From Promethearchaeota archaeon (GTDB lineage Archaea > Asgardarchaeota > Lokiarchaeia > Sigyniarchaeales > SOKP01): DNA of 64,000 bases. The notes beneath the pieces are model-generated. The model did no database searches. It saw only the letters and a program-made list of their open reading frames with translations, and was not told where the DNA came from. Positions 15,856 to 28,549 of the stretch are shown piece after piece (position 1 is the stretch's first letter; every line of letters starts with the position of its first letter). Made by a program: the position numbers and the translations under genes. The stretch spans positions 62,001 to 126,000 of the forward strand of contig JAHLWP010000001.1 in NCBI GenBank assembly GCA_019057865.1, given 5' to 3'.

Positions 15856-15886
15856 CTCACTTTAATAAAGAATTAATTATTATTTT

Positions 15887-15955
15887 ATGTGTTAATGGTG
15901 CAACCATTTCTTCAACTGAGTTCTCATTTTTCTAACTCAGAATCATTAGACACAT
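15887..15955 (-). promoter_or_regulatory. Candidate eukaryote-like SECIS element downstream of mvhD
   Basis: Minus-strand RNA AUGUGU-C-UA-AUGA-UU-CUGAGUU-[AGAAAAAUGAG]-AACUCAG-UU-GAAGAAAUGGUUGCAC-CAUUA-ACACAU: 7-bp helix capped by an A-rich loop, AUGA/GA quartet at its base, lower closing pairs AUGUGU/ACACAU. Confidence 0.62.
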
Positions 15956-15963
15956 TTTTCATT

Positions 15964-16443
15964 CTATTCGGTTTTTTTCTTTTTTTGTCCATTTGAATCC
16001 TTATTTTTTTCTAATAATAAAGATTCCTTTATAGGGTTGCTGCCTAAATTCTCAATGATCTCTGAAATTCTAATCATTTCTTCTTGAAATATCTGACCCT
16101 CTGCAGAGCTGCAATGAAACATTACGATTCTATCTGGTGATAGTCCAGTAGTCTTTAAAATTTCTTTAGCATAATTTACATTTCTTTCTGCTATAAGATT
16201 TCCAGTCTCATAGTCACATTCTCCTTCATATCATCCAGCCACTATAACACCATCAGCACCCTTTCCAATCGCTCGCATCAATAAACTTGGAGTTACTCGA
16301 CCTGTGCAATTTATTCTTACCGGTCTTATTGTTGCAGGATATTGAGCTCGAATTGTCCCTGCCATGTCAGCCCCTCCATATCCTCATTTCCAACAGAGAA
16401 AAGCTAATATTTTTTTATCTCTACTTTCTGTTATTTTTATCAC
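15964..16443 (-). CDS. MvhD/VhuD-like hydrogenase-heterodisulfide reductase linking subunit; selenoprotein with two in-frame UGA codons (16384-16386, 16231-16233)
   Basis: Readthrough translation from GTG 16443: VIKITESRDKKILAFLCWKUGYGGADMAGTIRAQYPATIRPVRINCTGRVTPSLLMRAIGKGADGVIVAGUYEGECDYETGNLIAERNVNYAKEILKTTGLSPDRIVMFHCSSAEGQIF...KKTE, stop TAG at 15964. Both UGAs sit where MvhD family members have Cys. Confidence 0.88.
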
Positions 16444-16447
16444 CTCT

Positions 16448-18430
16448 TTATATTTCCTCTAATATTGCATCAATTTGCTTTTCATATTGAGGTTCTCGAT
16501 AATATCTTAAAGTTATTGCTTCTGAAGGGCAATTAGCTAAACAAGATCCACAACCTCTGCATAATATCTCGTTTACTTCCGCTCCATCATCCATTAACTG
16601 TATTGCGTCATAAGGACAATTTAACTCACACAGGCCACACTTCGCGCATTTTTCTTTATCAACTGTAGCACGTATTAATCTTATTCTATAAATTTCTTTC
16701 CCCATTAATCTTGAAAGTGATGATGCCGCCGCTCTACCTTGAACAATTGACTCAGCTATAGATTTAGGGCCTTGAGATACTCCTGCAAGCACAATACCTG
16801 GAATTTTTGTATCTATAGGATTTAATCTTGAATGAAACTCTTTAAAAAATCCATCTTGGCTGGTTTCAAGTTTTAGGATCTTCTGAAGCTTATCGTTACC
16901 TTTTGTTGGAACCATTGATGCTGATAAAACTACTAAATCATATTCGAGTTCTTTTATTCCTAATGATTCTCTAAGAGTATTTTGGATAATGACCTTAATA
17001 TTATGAGTATCAGGATCTTCTTTTAACTTAGAAATATTAGTTCTGATGTATCGAATACCTTCCTTTCGTGATGCAGTAAAATATTCTTCATAACCTTTAC
17101 CAGCAGCTCTTATATCCATATAAGCTACATCAATCTGAGTATCAGGATAATGTTGTTTAATTAATTTCGAGTTCTTAATTGCTATCATACAACAAACACC
17201 TGAACTACAATATGTATTTTTGTTTAAATCTCTTGAACCTACACATTGAATAAATAAAACATTTTTCGGTATTTTACCGTCAGAGGGTCTTACAAGATGC
17301 CCAAGTGTGGGTCCATTAGGAGCTAAAATTCTTTCTAGTTTCAATTCTGTAATTACATTTGGATATATATTATATCCAAGGTAGCCTGTTTCGGGTTCGT
17401 ATTCATCCCACCCTGTTGCTACAAGAACCGATCCTACTTTTAAAGTAACAAGTTCATCTTGTTGATCAAAATTAATTGCATCTAATTCACAGGCTTTCTG
17501 GCATAATCCACATTTAATACATTGGTTCATATCTATTTGAGCTATAGAAGGGACTGCTTGAGCAAAGGAAACATAGATAGCCTTTCTTGGGTTTAATCCT
17601 TCATTGAATTCATCATAACCATAAACAGGGCAAGGTTCGATACATGCTCCACACCCATTACATTCGTTTGTAACATATCGTGCTTTTTTCCTGATTGTTA
17701 CATCAAAGTTTCCCACAAATCCAGATATATCCTCCATTTCACTATAAGTATAAAGATTCAACCCAGGAGTTCTTGTCGCTTGAAGCATGACTGGTCCTAG
17801 AATTCATATACTACAATCATCAGTAGGAAATGTTCGGTCTAACAATGCCATTTTTCCACCTATAGTGGGACTCTTCTCAACTAGATGGACTTCAAATCCT
17901 TGTTCTGCTAAGTCAATAGCAGCAGTTAAACCAGCGACACCCCCACCAATTATTAATGCTTTTTGAGTTATATCTACTTCTTTAATTAAAATTTTCTCTA
18001 AAACAGCAGCTCTAGCGACTCCGGATCTAATGGCATCTTCTGCTACTTTTTGGGCACCAGGTTTATCATCTCGATGTACAAAACTAGCATGTTCTCTAAT
18101 ATTTACAAATTCTAAGTATGAAGGATCTAATCCCATCGACTCTAAAACGCTTTGAAACACAGGTTCATGAGTTATAGGGGTGCATGATGCTACAATTAAT
18201 CTATTTGCATTACTTTCATTCATATTTTCTTTTATAAATTCAGCTCCAGGCTCTGTACAGAGACTAATATAATCAGAAGCTCCAACTACATTAGGTAATG
18301 CTTTTGAAAATTCAACTAGTGCTCTGCAATCAATTATTTCAGCAATATTAATACCTCACTGACAGACAGCAACATAAATTTTCGGTATTTCTCCGATATC
18401 TTTAATTTCTTCGTGTTTGGTTTCTACCAT
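16448..18430 (-). CDS. hdrA: Heterodisulfide reductase subunit A (HdrA) selenoprotein with two in-frame UGA codons (18356-18358, 17804-17806)
   Basis: ORF-track pieces 17804-18223 and 16448-17788 are one frame: MVETKHEEIKDIGEIPKIYVAVCQUGINIAEIID...VASCTPITHEPVFQ...[62 protein letters not shown]...; C-terminal ferredoxin motifs CAKCGLCELNCP and CRGCGSCLANCP. Confidence 0.92.
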
Positions 18431-18548
18431 TGCATATCATTCCATTATGTAATTTTTGTTTGTCCTCCAAAAATTCGTATTTTTTTTAATTATAAATCTA
18501 AATATTATATTTTAATTAAATAAATTTAAATCAAAAATGTTTGTATAT

Positions 18549-19972: not shown

Positions 19973-20197
19973 AATGAGAATAGATTCATGAGTATTTTAA
20001 ATAATCTTGGCAATGCATTTAATAATTATTGATAAATGAATGACAAAATTTTAGAAATTTTTGACAATGATATTAAATTATTCAATCTCGTAAAATTTTT
20101 CGTCTAAATATAAATAGGAAGTGGTTTCTAAAAAAATTAGCGATGGGAGTTGACTTTTTTAATAATTATTGGGAATGAATCTAATAATATTTAGGAA

Positions 20198-21082
20198 TCA
20201 TTTGATTTTTTCAGTTATACAGTCTTTTATTTCCTCCACGATCCAACTGTATCGAGCAGGATTCGAAATGCCCTTAATAAGTTTTTCGACTTTTTCTTTT
20301 GGATAATTGATTAATAAATAATCATATAAAATCTGTAATCCTTCTCTCACTTTATTTCACAATATTTTCATTTCAGTTTTATTTTTGTATTCTTGATTCA
20401 AATTTTTAATAAATTCTTGCAACTCATTATTGAACATGGTTCTTTTTTCAGGAGCAATACAATTTATAAAGGAAAGAATGTGAATGATTCCTGATACTTC
20501 TTTATCGCAAGTATGACCAAAGCGAGGGGCTCTACATTCATGACATACTGTTAAAGCATAATCCTGAAAATTTTTTTTACTTAACTTTTTATTTAACATG
20601 AAATTTGCTCCCACAGCTGAGGAGCCGCATGGGGATGATCTTAAAACCGTTACATTTAAAATTTTCGTCTCCTTGTCTAAATTTAATTCAAAAAGAGGTT
20701 TTCCAAAATATTTTGCGAAAGTATCAATCTCTGGAATTCCTGTATTCGGTTCTAAAGAACACATGGTTCGAGGACCAACTACTTTAGGATTAATATTTCT
20801 AGCTTGCTTTAATAAGCCAAGACCAGGTGTTATGCCTAAGATTAATGGTTTTTGGAGTCCAGCTAGTTCCAAAATGATATCTGGATGCCGAACATATGAT
20901 AAATAAAGCTCGCACTCCGGTATATCAAGATAAATATCATCATCTAACATAACTGTTGGAGGGATATCTGGAACTAATATCCATTCTACATCAAAATGCT
21001 TTTTAGTGTTTTCAAAAGCTCTTTCACCATATTTTCCATCAGATACAATACCAATCTTAATTTTGCTTTTATCCTTTTCCAT
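20198..21082 (-). CDS. DUF166-like protein; possible UGA readthrough at 20357-20359 (ORF track stops at 20357)
   Basis: Core 20357-21082 resembles DUF166 (Cys-rich VCHECRAPRFGHTCDKEV). Reading through UGA adds NKVREGLQILYDYLLINYPKEKVEKLIKGISNPARYSWIVEEIKDCITEKIK before the next stop. DUF166 is from memory; the extension is tentative. Confidence 0.5.
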
Positions 21083-21966: not shown

Positions 21967-22851
21967 TTAATCCTCTTTTTCTTTATCTAATAATTCCTTT
22001 TCCTTTAATATTTTTTCTTTCATATATTCAAAATATTCTGGACCATCCATAAGTAATTCTTTATCCTCCTCAAAATCTTTTAACTCTAATTCTGCAAACC
22101 ATCCTTGTTGATAACAATCTTGATTCATCCATTCAGGATGTTCTTCTAACGCTTTATTGACAGCAATAATTTTTCCTGAACCAGGAGATATTAATTGCAA
22201 TACTGTTTTAACAGATTCAAAAGAACCAACATCATCGAATTGTTCAATTTCTTGACCAATTTCGGGTAATTCTACAAACATTATATCACTTGACTGATTT
22301 TGCAGATAATCTGTAATACCAATTAGAGCTCTATCACCATCTGGTTTGATCCAACAATCATTTTCATTGAAGAAATATCCCTCTTTAGGAACTTGAAAAT
22401 AGAATTTATCCACAGTAATATCAAAAAAATCCATCCTTTCTGTCTTAGCTACGATAACAATATCTTCTTTTTCGCTTACTTTTAGTTCCTCTAAAAACCC
22501 CTTAGCAATCATTTCAGCTAATTTCTTGGCATTTTCACTCAATTTTAAACTCGTCCCAGGTTTTATTTTTAACTTTTTTAACATATCGGGGATAAATATT
22601 CGTTTGTAAATTTTTTGATTTCGCTCTTCGATTAATTTTGTAGCACATCTTGTCATACAACCATCTATTACAATAGTTCTAGATTCTCTTAAATTAGATT
22701 CATATTTCTCATCGCCCGTATTCAGCAAAACTGGACAAATTAAATTCAAAGCAGGTTTTTTTTCAATTAGATTAAGTGCTACTACTCTCGCAATTACCCC
22801 TAGTGATTTATCTAGACCGTTGCAAGGTAAAACACATAACTGTTTATCCAT
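21967..22851 (-). CDS. DGC domain fused to GcvH-like (lipoyl carrier) domain
   Basis: N-term VLPCNGLDKSLGVIARVVALNL...VIDGCMTRCATK; C-term DRALIGITDYLQ...FVELPEIGQEI...SFESVKTVLQLISPGSGKIIAVNKALEEHPEWMNQDCYQQGWFAELEL (GcvH pattern, candidate lipoyl Lys in ESVKT). Confidence 0.8.
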   Translation of the reverse strand: MDKQLCVLPCNGLDKSLGVIARVVALNLIEKKPALNLICPVLLNTGDEKYESNLRESRTIVIDGCMTRCATKLIEERNQKIYKRIFIPDMLKKLKIKPGTSLKLSENAKKLAEMIAKGFLEELKVSEKEDIVIVAKTERMDFFDITVDKFYFQVPKEGYFFNENDCWIKPDGDRALIGITDYLQNQSSDIMFVELPEIGQEIEQFDDVGSFESVKTVLQLISPGSGKIIAVNKALEEHPEWMNQDCYQQGWFAELELKDFEEDKELLMDGPEYFEYMKEKILKEKELLDKEKED

Positions 22852-24016: not shown

Positions 24017-24310
24017 ATGGTTCAACAAGAGAGTGAACTTCAAAAAGAAAATAAACTTAAAGTAGAAATTTATGTGCCTTTAAATGTATGCGCTTGCCAA
24101 TGGGAAAGATTTATGAATCTCGTTTTTCAGGTAATTACACCTTATAATAAGTATATAACATTCGATACAAAGAATTTAGATTCTGAAGAAGCAAGAAAAT
24201 TGAATTTGCATGGTAATAGTGTAGTTATTGATGGAAATGAAATCGTTACGACATCATTTGCTCTGAAGAAAAAGCTACCAGAAATATTGAAGTCAAAAGG
24301 TTTGATTTAA
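24017..24310 (+). CDS. Small thioredoxin-fold-like protein
   Basis: KVEIYVPLNVCACQWERFMNLVFQV...LNLHGNSVVIDGNEIV; CxC in the redox position. Confidence 0.5.
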   Translation: MVQQESELQKENKLKVEIYVPLNVCACQWERFMNLVFQVITPYNKYITFDTKNLDSEEARKLNLHGNSVVIDGNEIVTTSFALKKKLPEILKSKGLI

Positions 24311-26244: not shown

Positions 26245-26310
26245 CTAATCATAATAATTTATGGATTTTAAAAATTGTAAAATATTTTGGAATATATAGG
26301 ACGCAATCCT

Positions 26311-26355
26311 ATTGTCAATCTTTTACTAGTATTTTTTTAAAAGATTTCATTCAAT
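26311..26355 (-). promoter_or_regulatory. Candidate eukaryote-like SECIS element downstream of the C-U-U gene
   Basis: Minus-strand RNA AUUG-A-AUGA-AAUCUUUU-[AAAAAAAUACUAGU]-AAAAGAUU-GA-CAAU: perfect 8-bp helix, A-rich loop, AUGA/GA quartet and AUUG/CAAU lower stem; starts a few nt after the TAA at 26360-26362. Confidence 0.6.
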
Positions 26356-26359
26356 TTTT

Positions 26360-26896
26360 TTACATATTCCTTTTTAATTTAAAATAATGGGCAAATATCT
26401 CATTATCTTTCCCATATCTTTTTCGAATGGTTGCTTTAAACCGTCCTATATCCAATCTATTTCTCACTTTTTCTCATCAACATCCCGAATCTGGTTGTAT
26501 ATCGATAATGCTATTTGGATATAGATTAAAATCTATATCTTCTCTTAATGGCATAAAATTCCTTGGGTTTCCCTCTTCATCTGGACCATATGGCATTAAT
26601 CCAATATCATCATAAATTTCATTTTGTTTAGGGTTCCACACGAGTTGCAGATAGTTATGGATATAATCCTTAAATATTGGGAAAATCGAATCTTGGGGGT
26701 GTTCAAAAATATATTTATCAACCATGGCTAAAGCTTGTACAAATGTGGCATTATCATCTACCTCAACAGTAAATTCCTTTCCTTTTGATAATCCCGTTAG
26801 TGGTATACTTATCTTAAACGTAATTTTCTTAATTTTTGTTATCACCTCTAATTTTATATTAAAATATACAATAAAATAAAGATATAAAAAATTCAT
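26360..26896 (-). CDS. Beta-grasp-like protein, candidate selenoprotein with tandem UGA (26477-26479, 26474-26476); GTG alternative start near 26847
   Basis: ORF-track part ends ...REDIDFNLYPNSIIDIQPDSGC; readthrough gives UUEKVRNRLDIGRFKATIRKRYGKDNEIFAHYFKLKRNM then TAA. SECIS-like hairpin directly downstream. Confidence 0.55.
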
Positions 26897-26911: not shown

Positions 26912-27976
26912 TTATTTGTATTTACTGTTTGTCTCTTGATATCCTTTCCAGAAACCATGTCTACCTAAATATCTCCCTAAATAAACCAAGGATAACATTA
27001 CAGGAATTTCCCAGAATAACCCCATTGTAGTCCCTAAAGCGGCAATCGAACCTACACCATACATCGTTACAGCAACGGCAATCGCAATTTCGAAATGACT
27101 TGAAGACCCTATAAGTACCGTTATAATTGCTTGGCTATATTTCACTTTTAATACTTTAGTAACTATTATATTATACCCCACAACAATTGCAAATCCGACT
27201 AATAGGGGTACCGTAATTAAAAGCAATAAATCGGGGTTATCTATAAGCACTTGACCATTCAAGGAAAATAACACCATTAATGTCATTAATAAGGCAACTA
27301 TGGCTATAGTGGAAACAACCGGTCGGTATTTATTATGGAACCAATCTTCACCTTTGGATTTCACTAACGTTTTTTTACTAATTACGCCAAATAAGAGCGG
27401 AAGTCCGATAAATACTCCTAATGAAATCAATAACATGATTGGATCTAAAGGAATTTTCTTTTCTAAAGTAATATTTGCTATACTTACCAGAAGTGTCATT
27501 ACAGGTATATACAAAATAATTATTGTTATTGTATTTAAGCTGGTTGTAATAACATTTTGTTCTTGGTTTCCTTTTGCTAACCACCCCCATACCAAAACCA
27601 TTGCAGTACAAGGGCTACTACTTAGCAAGATAACTGCAAGTATAAGTTGCTGATTTCCTCCTAAAAATAAAAGTGCCATTCCGAGCCCTACAAATGGCGC
27701 GACAATCCAATTCGAAAAAAGTGTCAGTATGATAGGTTTTGGATTTTTTCCAAGCTTTTTTAACTCTGAGGCTTGAAGATTTAACATTGCCGGATACATC
27801 ATAAGAAATAAACAAACACCAATTGGTATAGAAATTCCGGCAATTTGCCAAGAATCAATTACTTCACTTATGCCTGGGACATACTGAGAGATAAGGATTC
27901 CGATAATAATGCATAACGCTATCCAAACTGGTAGCAATTTATCAAATACTCCAAGTTTTTTTTCTTCGTCACTCAT
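26912..27976 (-). CDS. ACR3-family arsenite efflux transporter
   Basis: VCLFLMMYPAMLNLQASEL, LLSSSPCTAMVLVWGWLAKGNQEQNVITTSLNTITII; about ten TM helices. Confidence 0.92.
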   Translation of the reverse strand: MSDEEKKLGVFDKLLPVWIALCIIIGILISQYVPGISEVIDSWQIAGISIPIGVCLFLMMYPAMLNLQASELKKLGKNPKPIILTLFSNWIVAPFVGLGMALLFLGGNQQLILAVILLSSSPCTAMVLVWGWLAKGNQEQNVITTSLNTITIIILYIPVMTLLVSIANITLEKKIPLDPIMLLISLGVFIGLPLLFGVISKKTLVKSKGEDWFHNKYRPVVSTIAIVALLMTLMVLFSLNGQVLIDNPDLLLLITVPLLVGFAIVVGYNIIVTKVLKVKYSQAIITVLIGSSSHFEIAIAVAVTMYGVGSIAALGTTMGLFWEIPVMLSLVYLGRYLGRHGFWKGYQETNSKYK

Positions 27977-28126: not shown

Positions 28127-28549
28127 TTGAAAGTGATACAAATTAAAAGTGAAAGAAAAGCTGAAATAATTAATAGTCTGAAACTATGTTTTGATCTTCA
28201 AGATCAAGATATAGAACCTTATTTTAATACCTTAAGAGAAATTGGTATTAAATTAAATAAAAATAAAAGTTTAATAGATCTTACGAAATTCTCCAATGTT
28301 TTAGGAAATGAAACCCGTTTTAAAATTGTACAGTTGTTAAATGATAAAGATTATTGTGTATGTGAATTGGAAGCAATAATAGATAAAGCGCAATCCTCAA
28401 TTTCTCATCATTTAAAAATACTTGAACGCATGAAAATAATAAGAGGTATAAAAAGAGGTTATTTTACTCATTATGAATTAATTAAAGAACAATTTCAGAA
28501 ATATGTACAGAATTTTGAGAAATATTTTGAATTATTTAATTTTTCATAA
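28127..28549 (+). CDS. ArsR-family regulator
   Basis: FSNVLGNETRFKIVQLLNDKDYCVCELEAIIDKAQSSISHHLKIL. Confidence 0.9.
   Translation: MKVIQIKSERKAEIINSLKLCFDLQDQDIEPYFNTLREIGIKLNKNKSLIDLTKFSNVLGNETRFKIVQLLNDKDYCVCELEAIIDKAQSSISHHLKILERMKIIRGIKRGYFTHYELIKEQFQKYVQNFEKYFELFNFS

Follow-up and report, generated by a model that had tools for sequence, protein, structure and literature searches.

The analysed window comprises 64,000 nucleotides of a Promethearchaeota archaeon genome (GCA_019057865.1, contig JAHLWP010000001.1, positions 62,001 to 126,000). On its minus strand, the frame running from 26845 to 26360 is open if UGA is read through: 122 codons are followed by TGA TGA, 37 further codons and TAA. 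The N-terminal domain of 122 aa (26480..26845, minus strand) starts with the GTG at 26845 and ends in ...DIQPDSGC; it was matched in 46 of 61 related genomes, and the same start is found in 46 of 61 relatives. An ATG at 26896 was considered as the start as well and was dropped for the GTG, where the homology begins. The tandem in-frame UGA UGA (26474..26479, minus strand) would be read as Sec-Sec, giving Gly-Cys-Sec-Sec. It is followed in the same frame by a conserved tail of 37 residues (26363..26473, minus strand), which starts with EKVRNRLDIGRFKATIRKRYGKDNEIFAHYF and is kept in all homologues; in the window copy its codons are EKVRNRLDIGRFKATIRKRYGKDNEIFAHYFKLKRNM. Translation ends at a TAA (26360..26362, minus strand), and 5 nt 3' of this stop codon a hairpin begins (26311..26355, minus strand).

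Directly upstream of the gene lies an ACR3 arsenite efflux transporter (26912..27976, minus strand; TIGR00832, 293 bits, cut-off 282.8), its probable operon partner. ArsR-like genes are found beyond ACR3, upstream in the window, including a divergent ArsR-like regulator taken from the ORF list (28127..28549, plus strand), for which a homologous member of the neighbour cluster matches PF01022 ArsR. On the other side a small CxC protein (PLNVCACQW) of thioredoxin fold is encoded (24017..24310, plus strand).

Conservation of the UGA pair and of the tail

The profile of the whole protein gave matches in 68 of 232 Asgard genomes, all in one class except two marginal ones. In the scan of 85,488 species genomes 57 loci were found, all labelled Lokiarchaeota or Lokiarchaeia except for a short contig labelled Bathyarchaeota (L125); this contig carries a truncated family member together with its Lokiarchaeial neighbour and is probably mis-binned. 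Both UGAs were present in 83 of 83 distinct full-length members, and the three copies without the pair are cut by contig ends. The members with UGA-UGA span several families of the class, with identities down to about 25-30%. TGATGA was invariant (80/80 copies), while the preceding codon varies between TGT, TGC, GAT and GGN. A Cys at either UGA was found in none of the 83 full-length members from the 232 Asgard genomes and the one scan of 85,488 species genomes. Such homologues lend support to a selenoprotein gene where they exist, but its definition does not call for them.

The family occurs as GC-UU (with a few QC, EC and MC variants), as a second paralogue with HAD-UU, which is also encoded in the genome of the window (G000:C57:15397), and as SSA-U-G-UU (AUGUU) with three UGAs. 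Neighbouring tandem-UGA paralogues, GCUU together with HADUU or AUGUU, were seen at eight loci (L002, L013, L014, L016, L074, L076, L077 and L086); at L002 the upstream paralogue seemingly lacks a SECIS of its own and may share that of the downstream copy.

The tail and the domain had uncorrected pN/pS values of 0.40 and 0.47, respectively (209 pairs), and third positions accounted for 54% and 57% of their changes. The tail is thus translated in frame with the domain. A selenoprotein gene is expected to have conserved coding sequence both before and after an in-frame UGA, and this arrangement is observed here. The terminal stop codons of 78 members were TAA in 48, TGA in 21 and TAG in 9 cases.

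The SECIS element

The original prediction described the minus strand from 26355 to 26311 as AUUG-A-AUGA-AAUCUUUU-[AAAAAAAUACUAGU]-AAAAGAUU-GA-CAAU, a SECIS-like hairpin with an upper helix of 8 bp and a lower stem of 4 bp following a UGA-containing ORF. This sequence is correct letter for letter, and both helices form when a stretch of 91 nt around the hairpin is folded with RNAfold (-11.7 kcal/mol, z = -2.1; equally stable folds in 6 of 200 shuffles of the stretch). The AUGA/GA core is at 26350-26347 (AUGA) and 26316-26315 (GA) of the minus strand, the 8-bp upper stem closes an A-rich apical loop of 14 nt, and the AUGA is separated from the second UGA by 123 nt. The hairpin thus carries the 5'-AUGA...GA-3' quartet of the Asgard type I eSECIS-like elements, and falls within the other limits set for them: an upper stem of 7-15 bp that contains no more than 2 mismatches, an apical loop of 8-20 nt, a position from -30 to +600 nt relative to the 3' end of the gene, and an energy below -5 kcal/mol. 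A covariance model built from the family scores it at 83 bits.

The original prediction had warned that an AU-rich helix might fold by chance, and rightly so: the window contains 3 bare type I motifs of this strength, and the counts in four dinucleotide-shuffled versions of it were 1, 3, 3 and 2. Since it is no commoner in the window than in the shuffles, the proof of the SECIS has to be comparative. The argument that this hairpin and a similar one after mvhD support each other is weak by itself for the same reason, as shuffled windows yield as many motifs. The mvhD element is nevertheless real as well: the family covariance model finds it (15886..15956, minus strand; 28.2 bits, E = 0.0012), and it has the same layout. 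The genes that precede this element in the window (15964-18445, minus strand) are HdrA- and MvhD-like, contain several in-frame UGAs and encode known Lokiarchaeial selenoproteins.

The control with shuffled sequences that had been proposed gave a clear difference at the level of the family: 64 of 74 homologues have a SECIS-like motif of type I no more than 300 nt from the UGA pair, compared with 61 of 370 shuffles. Strong motifs (score at least 7.5) were found in 51 of 74 members and at 6 of 429 ordinary gene ends of the same loci, the members being mutually related and hence not independent. Of the grounds that the original prediction had named for giving it up, equal frequency in shuffled sequence was seen for the bare motif in the window; for the family as a whole neither this nor equal frequency near ordinary genes was observed.

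The covariance test in homologues, also proposed beforehand, was positive. In an alignment of 50 copies 91.8% of the pair cells are standard and 11 of the 16 pairs are altered on both sides, with 45-55% in slid controls. Covariation was found in all three helices, and in the upper stem 93.1% of the cells are paired, with compensatory changes. Invariant positions are U, G and A in the AUGA core, three adenines of the apical loop and the GU with which this loop ends on its 3' side. Several members have their terminal UGA embedded in the AUGA of the SECIS. The simple type I pattern had no match in 10 of the 74 members; among these, some have AA instead of GA, others use the element of a paralogue located downstream, and two or three distant members have no such explanation.

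A chance AU-rich hairpin, possible if the window alone is considered, is ruled out by this comparison with homologues (shuffles, covariation and ordinary gene ends). The tests for chance, conservation and covariation support the hairpin at 26355-26311 as a real eukaryote-like SECIS, as far as can be judged from sequence comparison, and uphold its assignment to the UGA-containing ORF.

An accessory 3' hairpin, UAGGA-UUGCG-UCCUA (26297..26311, minus strand), lies beyond the predicted element and covaries as well: 92.2% of the cells of its 5 pairs are paired, and 3 pairs are altered on both sides. A similar hairpin follows the window's mvhD SECIS. It was also present after most SECIS found by the covariance model at HdrA, MvhD and other genes in the relatives, although the model includes the hairpin and so favours elements having it. 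Since it is found behind most other SECIS in the relatives, the accessory hairpin may be a general feature of Lokiarchaeial SECIS.

Selenocysteine machinery and other candidate genes

The genome encodes SecS (G000:C41:173829, 390 bits) and EFSec (C41:178485, 245 bits, above the cut-off), and known Lokiarchaeial selenoproteins are present in it. Adjoining SecS is a tRNA-Sec candidate (L145:1501-1660, minus strand, G000:C41) with a UCA anticodon loop, a 9-bp acceptor stem (GGCCCCUAG/CUGGGGGCC) and a GCCA end. It scores 34.6 bits, with an Rfam cut-off of 47, and contains apparent internal insertions (an extra hairpin past the T loop); ARAGORN made no call for this candidate.

Several other genes attracted attention. 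A DUF166/DfsP-like ORF in the window (20159-21082, minus strand) reached 50 bits with the DUF166 selenoprotein model NF041372, short of the cut-off; it has a UGA at codon 242, 52 more open codons and a second UGA, and no nearby SECIS match was found on its strand. Small proteins with a single TM segment end in GGS-Sec-LC, GGG-Sec-PC and TGG-Sec-GC (L141, in the genome of the window at G000:C37:63552, L170 and L176), followed by a similar SECIS, and are possibly a further undescribed selenoprotein family. A protein of 142 aa with TSAI-Sec-GTGG immediately 5' of a match of the SECIS model (L173, G056:C5:241401) is a selenoprotein candidate, and a DsbA-like protein with FI-Sec-PWC ahead of such a match (L162, G056:C3:494659) fits the reported Asgard DsbA-like selenoprotein.

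Decoding of the UGA pair

Taken together, the gene is most probably a member of a previously undescribed Lokiarchaeial selenoprotein family with adjacent Sec-Sec. That Sec is actually inserted at the UGAs is very likely. It is highly probable, if somewhat less so, that both UGAs are decoded as Sec in the main product, and we hold with equal confidence (roughly 0.88) that the SECIS serves a tandem-Sec protein.

That the UGA pair is a plain double stop, the tail a separate small gene or a product of chance and the hairpin an AU-rich terminator-like fold can practically be discarded, for all that stopping at the first UGA would leave a compact protein of 122 aa and the AT-rich window is not short of bare motifs, because the tail is in frame, has no start of its own and is conserved in every homologue under constraint at the protein level, the hairpin covaries, and UAA or UAG never replaces either codon in 80 copies, although the long ORFs of the window end in 27 TAA, 6 TGA and 3 TAG.

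Decoding of UGA as another residue, by near-cognate suppression or a change of the code, is very improbable, slightly less so than the double stop. It would agree with the lack of a Cys homologue that would indicate Sec specifically. However, the terminal TGA in 21 of 78 members means that UGA also functions as a stop within the very same family, a SECIS follows nearly every gene, and the Sec machinery is encoded.

Somewhat better placed, if still improbable, is the reading in which translation mostly terminates at the second UGA, making a protein with the end ...Gly-Cys-Sec the main product and the full-length form a minor one. Two Sec insertions in succession are expected to be inefficient, and bacterial organometal selenoproteins with C-terminal Cys-Sec do exist (SaoC, KCU-star; PMC13188914 Table 1). 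Against this, the second UGA is invariant and never swapped for UAA, and the tail is as constrained as the domain, which argues that the full-length form matters. Insertion of Sec at both positions is retained as the main reading. EFSec with Sec-tRNA-Sec would read both consecutive UGAs under the direction of a single SECIS in the 3' UTR.

Predicted fold

The AlphaFold2 model (51 sequences; pLDDT 86.9, pTM 0.86) has the mixed order of beta and alpha elements seen in beta-grasp proteins: strands 5-12 and 23-30, a helix at 35-48, strands 81-88, 94-97 and 112-118, followed by GC-UU (121-124) and the helical tail. A Foldseek search of the model against the PDB gave nothing below E = 0.001. The top matches, none of them below this value, were mostly of beta-grasp type: the transcobalamin beta domain, PI3K adaptor/Ras-binding regions, HVO_2177, Urm1 and the USP7 UBLs. 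Membership in a known family was rejected, as searches of Pfam, NCBIfam and PDB sequences with the protein returned no match and a Pfam scan of 51 members produced only scattered weak matches. The domain is accordingly predicted to be beta-grasp-like on the basis of the model, and is placed in no family. The product would consist of this beta-grasp-like domain, Gly-Cys-Sec-Sec after its last strand, and the helical tail.

Gene neighbourhood and possible function

The neighbour clusters were named from one representative each. Seven of them are of ars/hgc type, and of the 49 loci that span at least 6 kb, 41 contain one or more of these seven and 36 contain two or more. The clusters are ArsR (31 loci), the CxC thioredoxin-fold protein (35), ACR3 (26), HgcB-like ferredoxin (14), methyltransferase/HgcA-like corrinoid protein (12), ArsC (9) and ArsM (3). 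The CxC protein is near 46 of 77 family loci and in one of them (L096) it is fused to ArsM; its AlphaFold2 model (pLDDT 89.3) has thioredoxin matches in the PDB. The number of ACR3 matches in a genome is 1-3, in most cases one, and the gene usually lies no more than a few kb away from a member of the family.

Lokiarchaeial operons also contain a methyltransferase fused to an HgcA-like corrinoid domain (L091:97-1758, plus strand) and an HgcB-like ferredoxin with a C-terminal CC (L109:4839-5171, plus strand), both with scores short of the HgcA/HgcB cut-offs. Elsewhere in the window (21967-22851, minus strand) is a protein whose N-terminal part resembles zinc-binding DGC-type proteins by eye and whose C-terminal part is a GcvH domain.

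Outside the clade of the window the distant members have aldehyde ferredoxin oxidoreductase and ferredoxins as neighbours (L062, L066, L072), or ACR3 and ArsR (L063). Since the neighbours differ there, the link to arsenic can be relied on in the window's clade but not beyond it, and the arsenic role may not be ancestral. The likeliest role within this clade is that the Cys-Sec-Sec cluster would bind As(III), methylarsenic or another soft metalloid or organometal of this kind, or reduce it, with ACR3, ArsC, ArsM, the CxC thioredoxin-fold protein and the HgcA/B-like proteins as possible partners. Judged from the neighbourhood, the chances of such metalloid handling are about even.

Alternatively, the tandem-Sec protein could be a sulfur/selenium carrier of the MoaD/ThiS type or a cofactor-assembly factor, and no metalloid binder. 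Ubiquitin and MoaD have a C-terminal Gly-Gly, and in the model Cys-Sec-Sec occupies the position of this Gly-Gly of MoaD. Urm1 and HVO_2177, a small protein from an archaeon, are among the beta-grasp matches, and the oxidoreductases adjoining the three distant members mentioned above are tungsten enzymes. However, there is no Gly-Gly end, a tail of 30-40 residues comes after UU, no Pfam match to ThiS, MoaD or Urm1 was found, and the arsenic neighbourhood is dominant in the clade of the window. We regard a carrier role as rather unlikely; together with termination at the second UGA it is the main rival of the favoured reading.

Returning to metalloid handling, the picture may be completed tentatively, with odds somewhat against it in its entirety: the first prokaryotic adjacent Sec-Sec would sit on a beta-grasp, with Cys-Sec-Sec replacing Gly-Gly as a tri-chalcogen site for As(III) or organometals, and the 3' hairpin of the SECIS would perhaps aid processive insertion.

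Significance and comparison with known systems

Sec codons in direct succession probe how far UGA recoding can go, because one SECIS must serve two successive EFSec deliveries. A family which keeps both UGAs in every known copy offers a natural system for the study of double recoding, in the archaeal group closest to eukaryotes. Annotation with the standard code would truncate the protein at ...GC in all genomes, which would explain why it was overlooked before.

Earlier work on Lokiarchaeota, reportedly by Mariotti in 2016, dealt with eSECIS-like elements. Seven Asgard selenoprotein families, namely SelD, FrhA, HdrA, FrhD, Prx-like, AhpF-N and DsbA-like, are listed in a later survey (Huang 2024, PMC11227280). 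The type I eSECIS-like elements described there have in common with the window element the AUGA...GA core, an upper stem of 8-9 bp, an A-rich loop, the location in the 3' UTR and, in some cases, a terminal UGA overlapping AUGA. The window element differs in serving a family outside these seven and in the addition of a covarying 3' hairpin of the GGA-UUGC-UCC type, of which the available part of PMC11227280 contains no description that we found. The present family extends the Asgard selenoproteome past the seven families and points to selenium in the arsenic/organometal chemistry of Asgard archaea.

The 2026 inventory comprises 119 prokaryotic selenoprotein families or subfamilies, 11 of them counted in archaea, and none with adjacent UU (PMC13188914 Table 1). 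Its bacterial organometal and arsenic selenoproteins (SaoC, SaoL, Sec-containing HgcA/HgcB, ArsM fusions) share with our family the use of Sec, in several cases beside Cys, and the link to arsenic or mercury genes, but none of them is listed with adjacent Sec-Sec and none is marked as archaeal in an arsenic or mercury context (PMC13188914 Table 1). With ubiquitin-like proteins, MoaD and Urm1 the family shares the predicted class of fold and a functional end past the last strand; it differs from them by Cys-Sec-Sec (GCUU, HADUU, AUGUU) in place of Gly-Gly, by the extra conserved helical tail and by the lack of a sequence match.

Algal PDI_e, which contains the motif GUGUU, was introduced as the first protein with consecutive Sec residues (PMC7539508). 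It resembles our family in its two consecutive Sec residues, and GUGUU is similar to the AUGUU of the third subfamily. However, PDI_e is a eukaryotic PDI-like protein from a group of mostly thioredoxin-like fold, described without bacterial homologues (PMC7539508), whereas the tandem-UGA family is archaeal and predicted to be beta-grasp-like, with no sign of relation between the two. Within the inventory of PMC13188914 and the available part of PMC11227280, this is the first prokaryotic Sec-Sec family found, the earlier Sec-Sec being that of algal PDI_e only. The type of hairpin was already known, and it is the gene family that is new.
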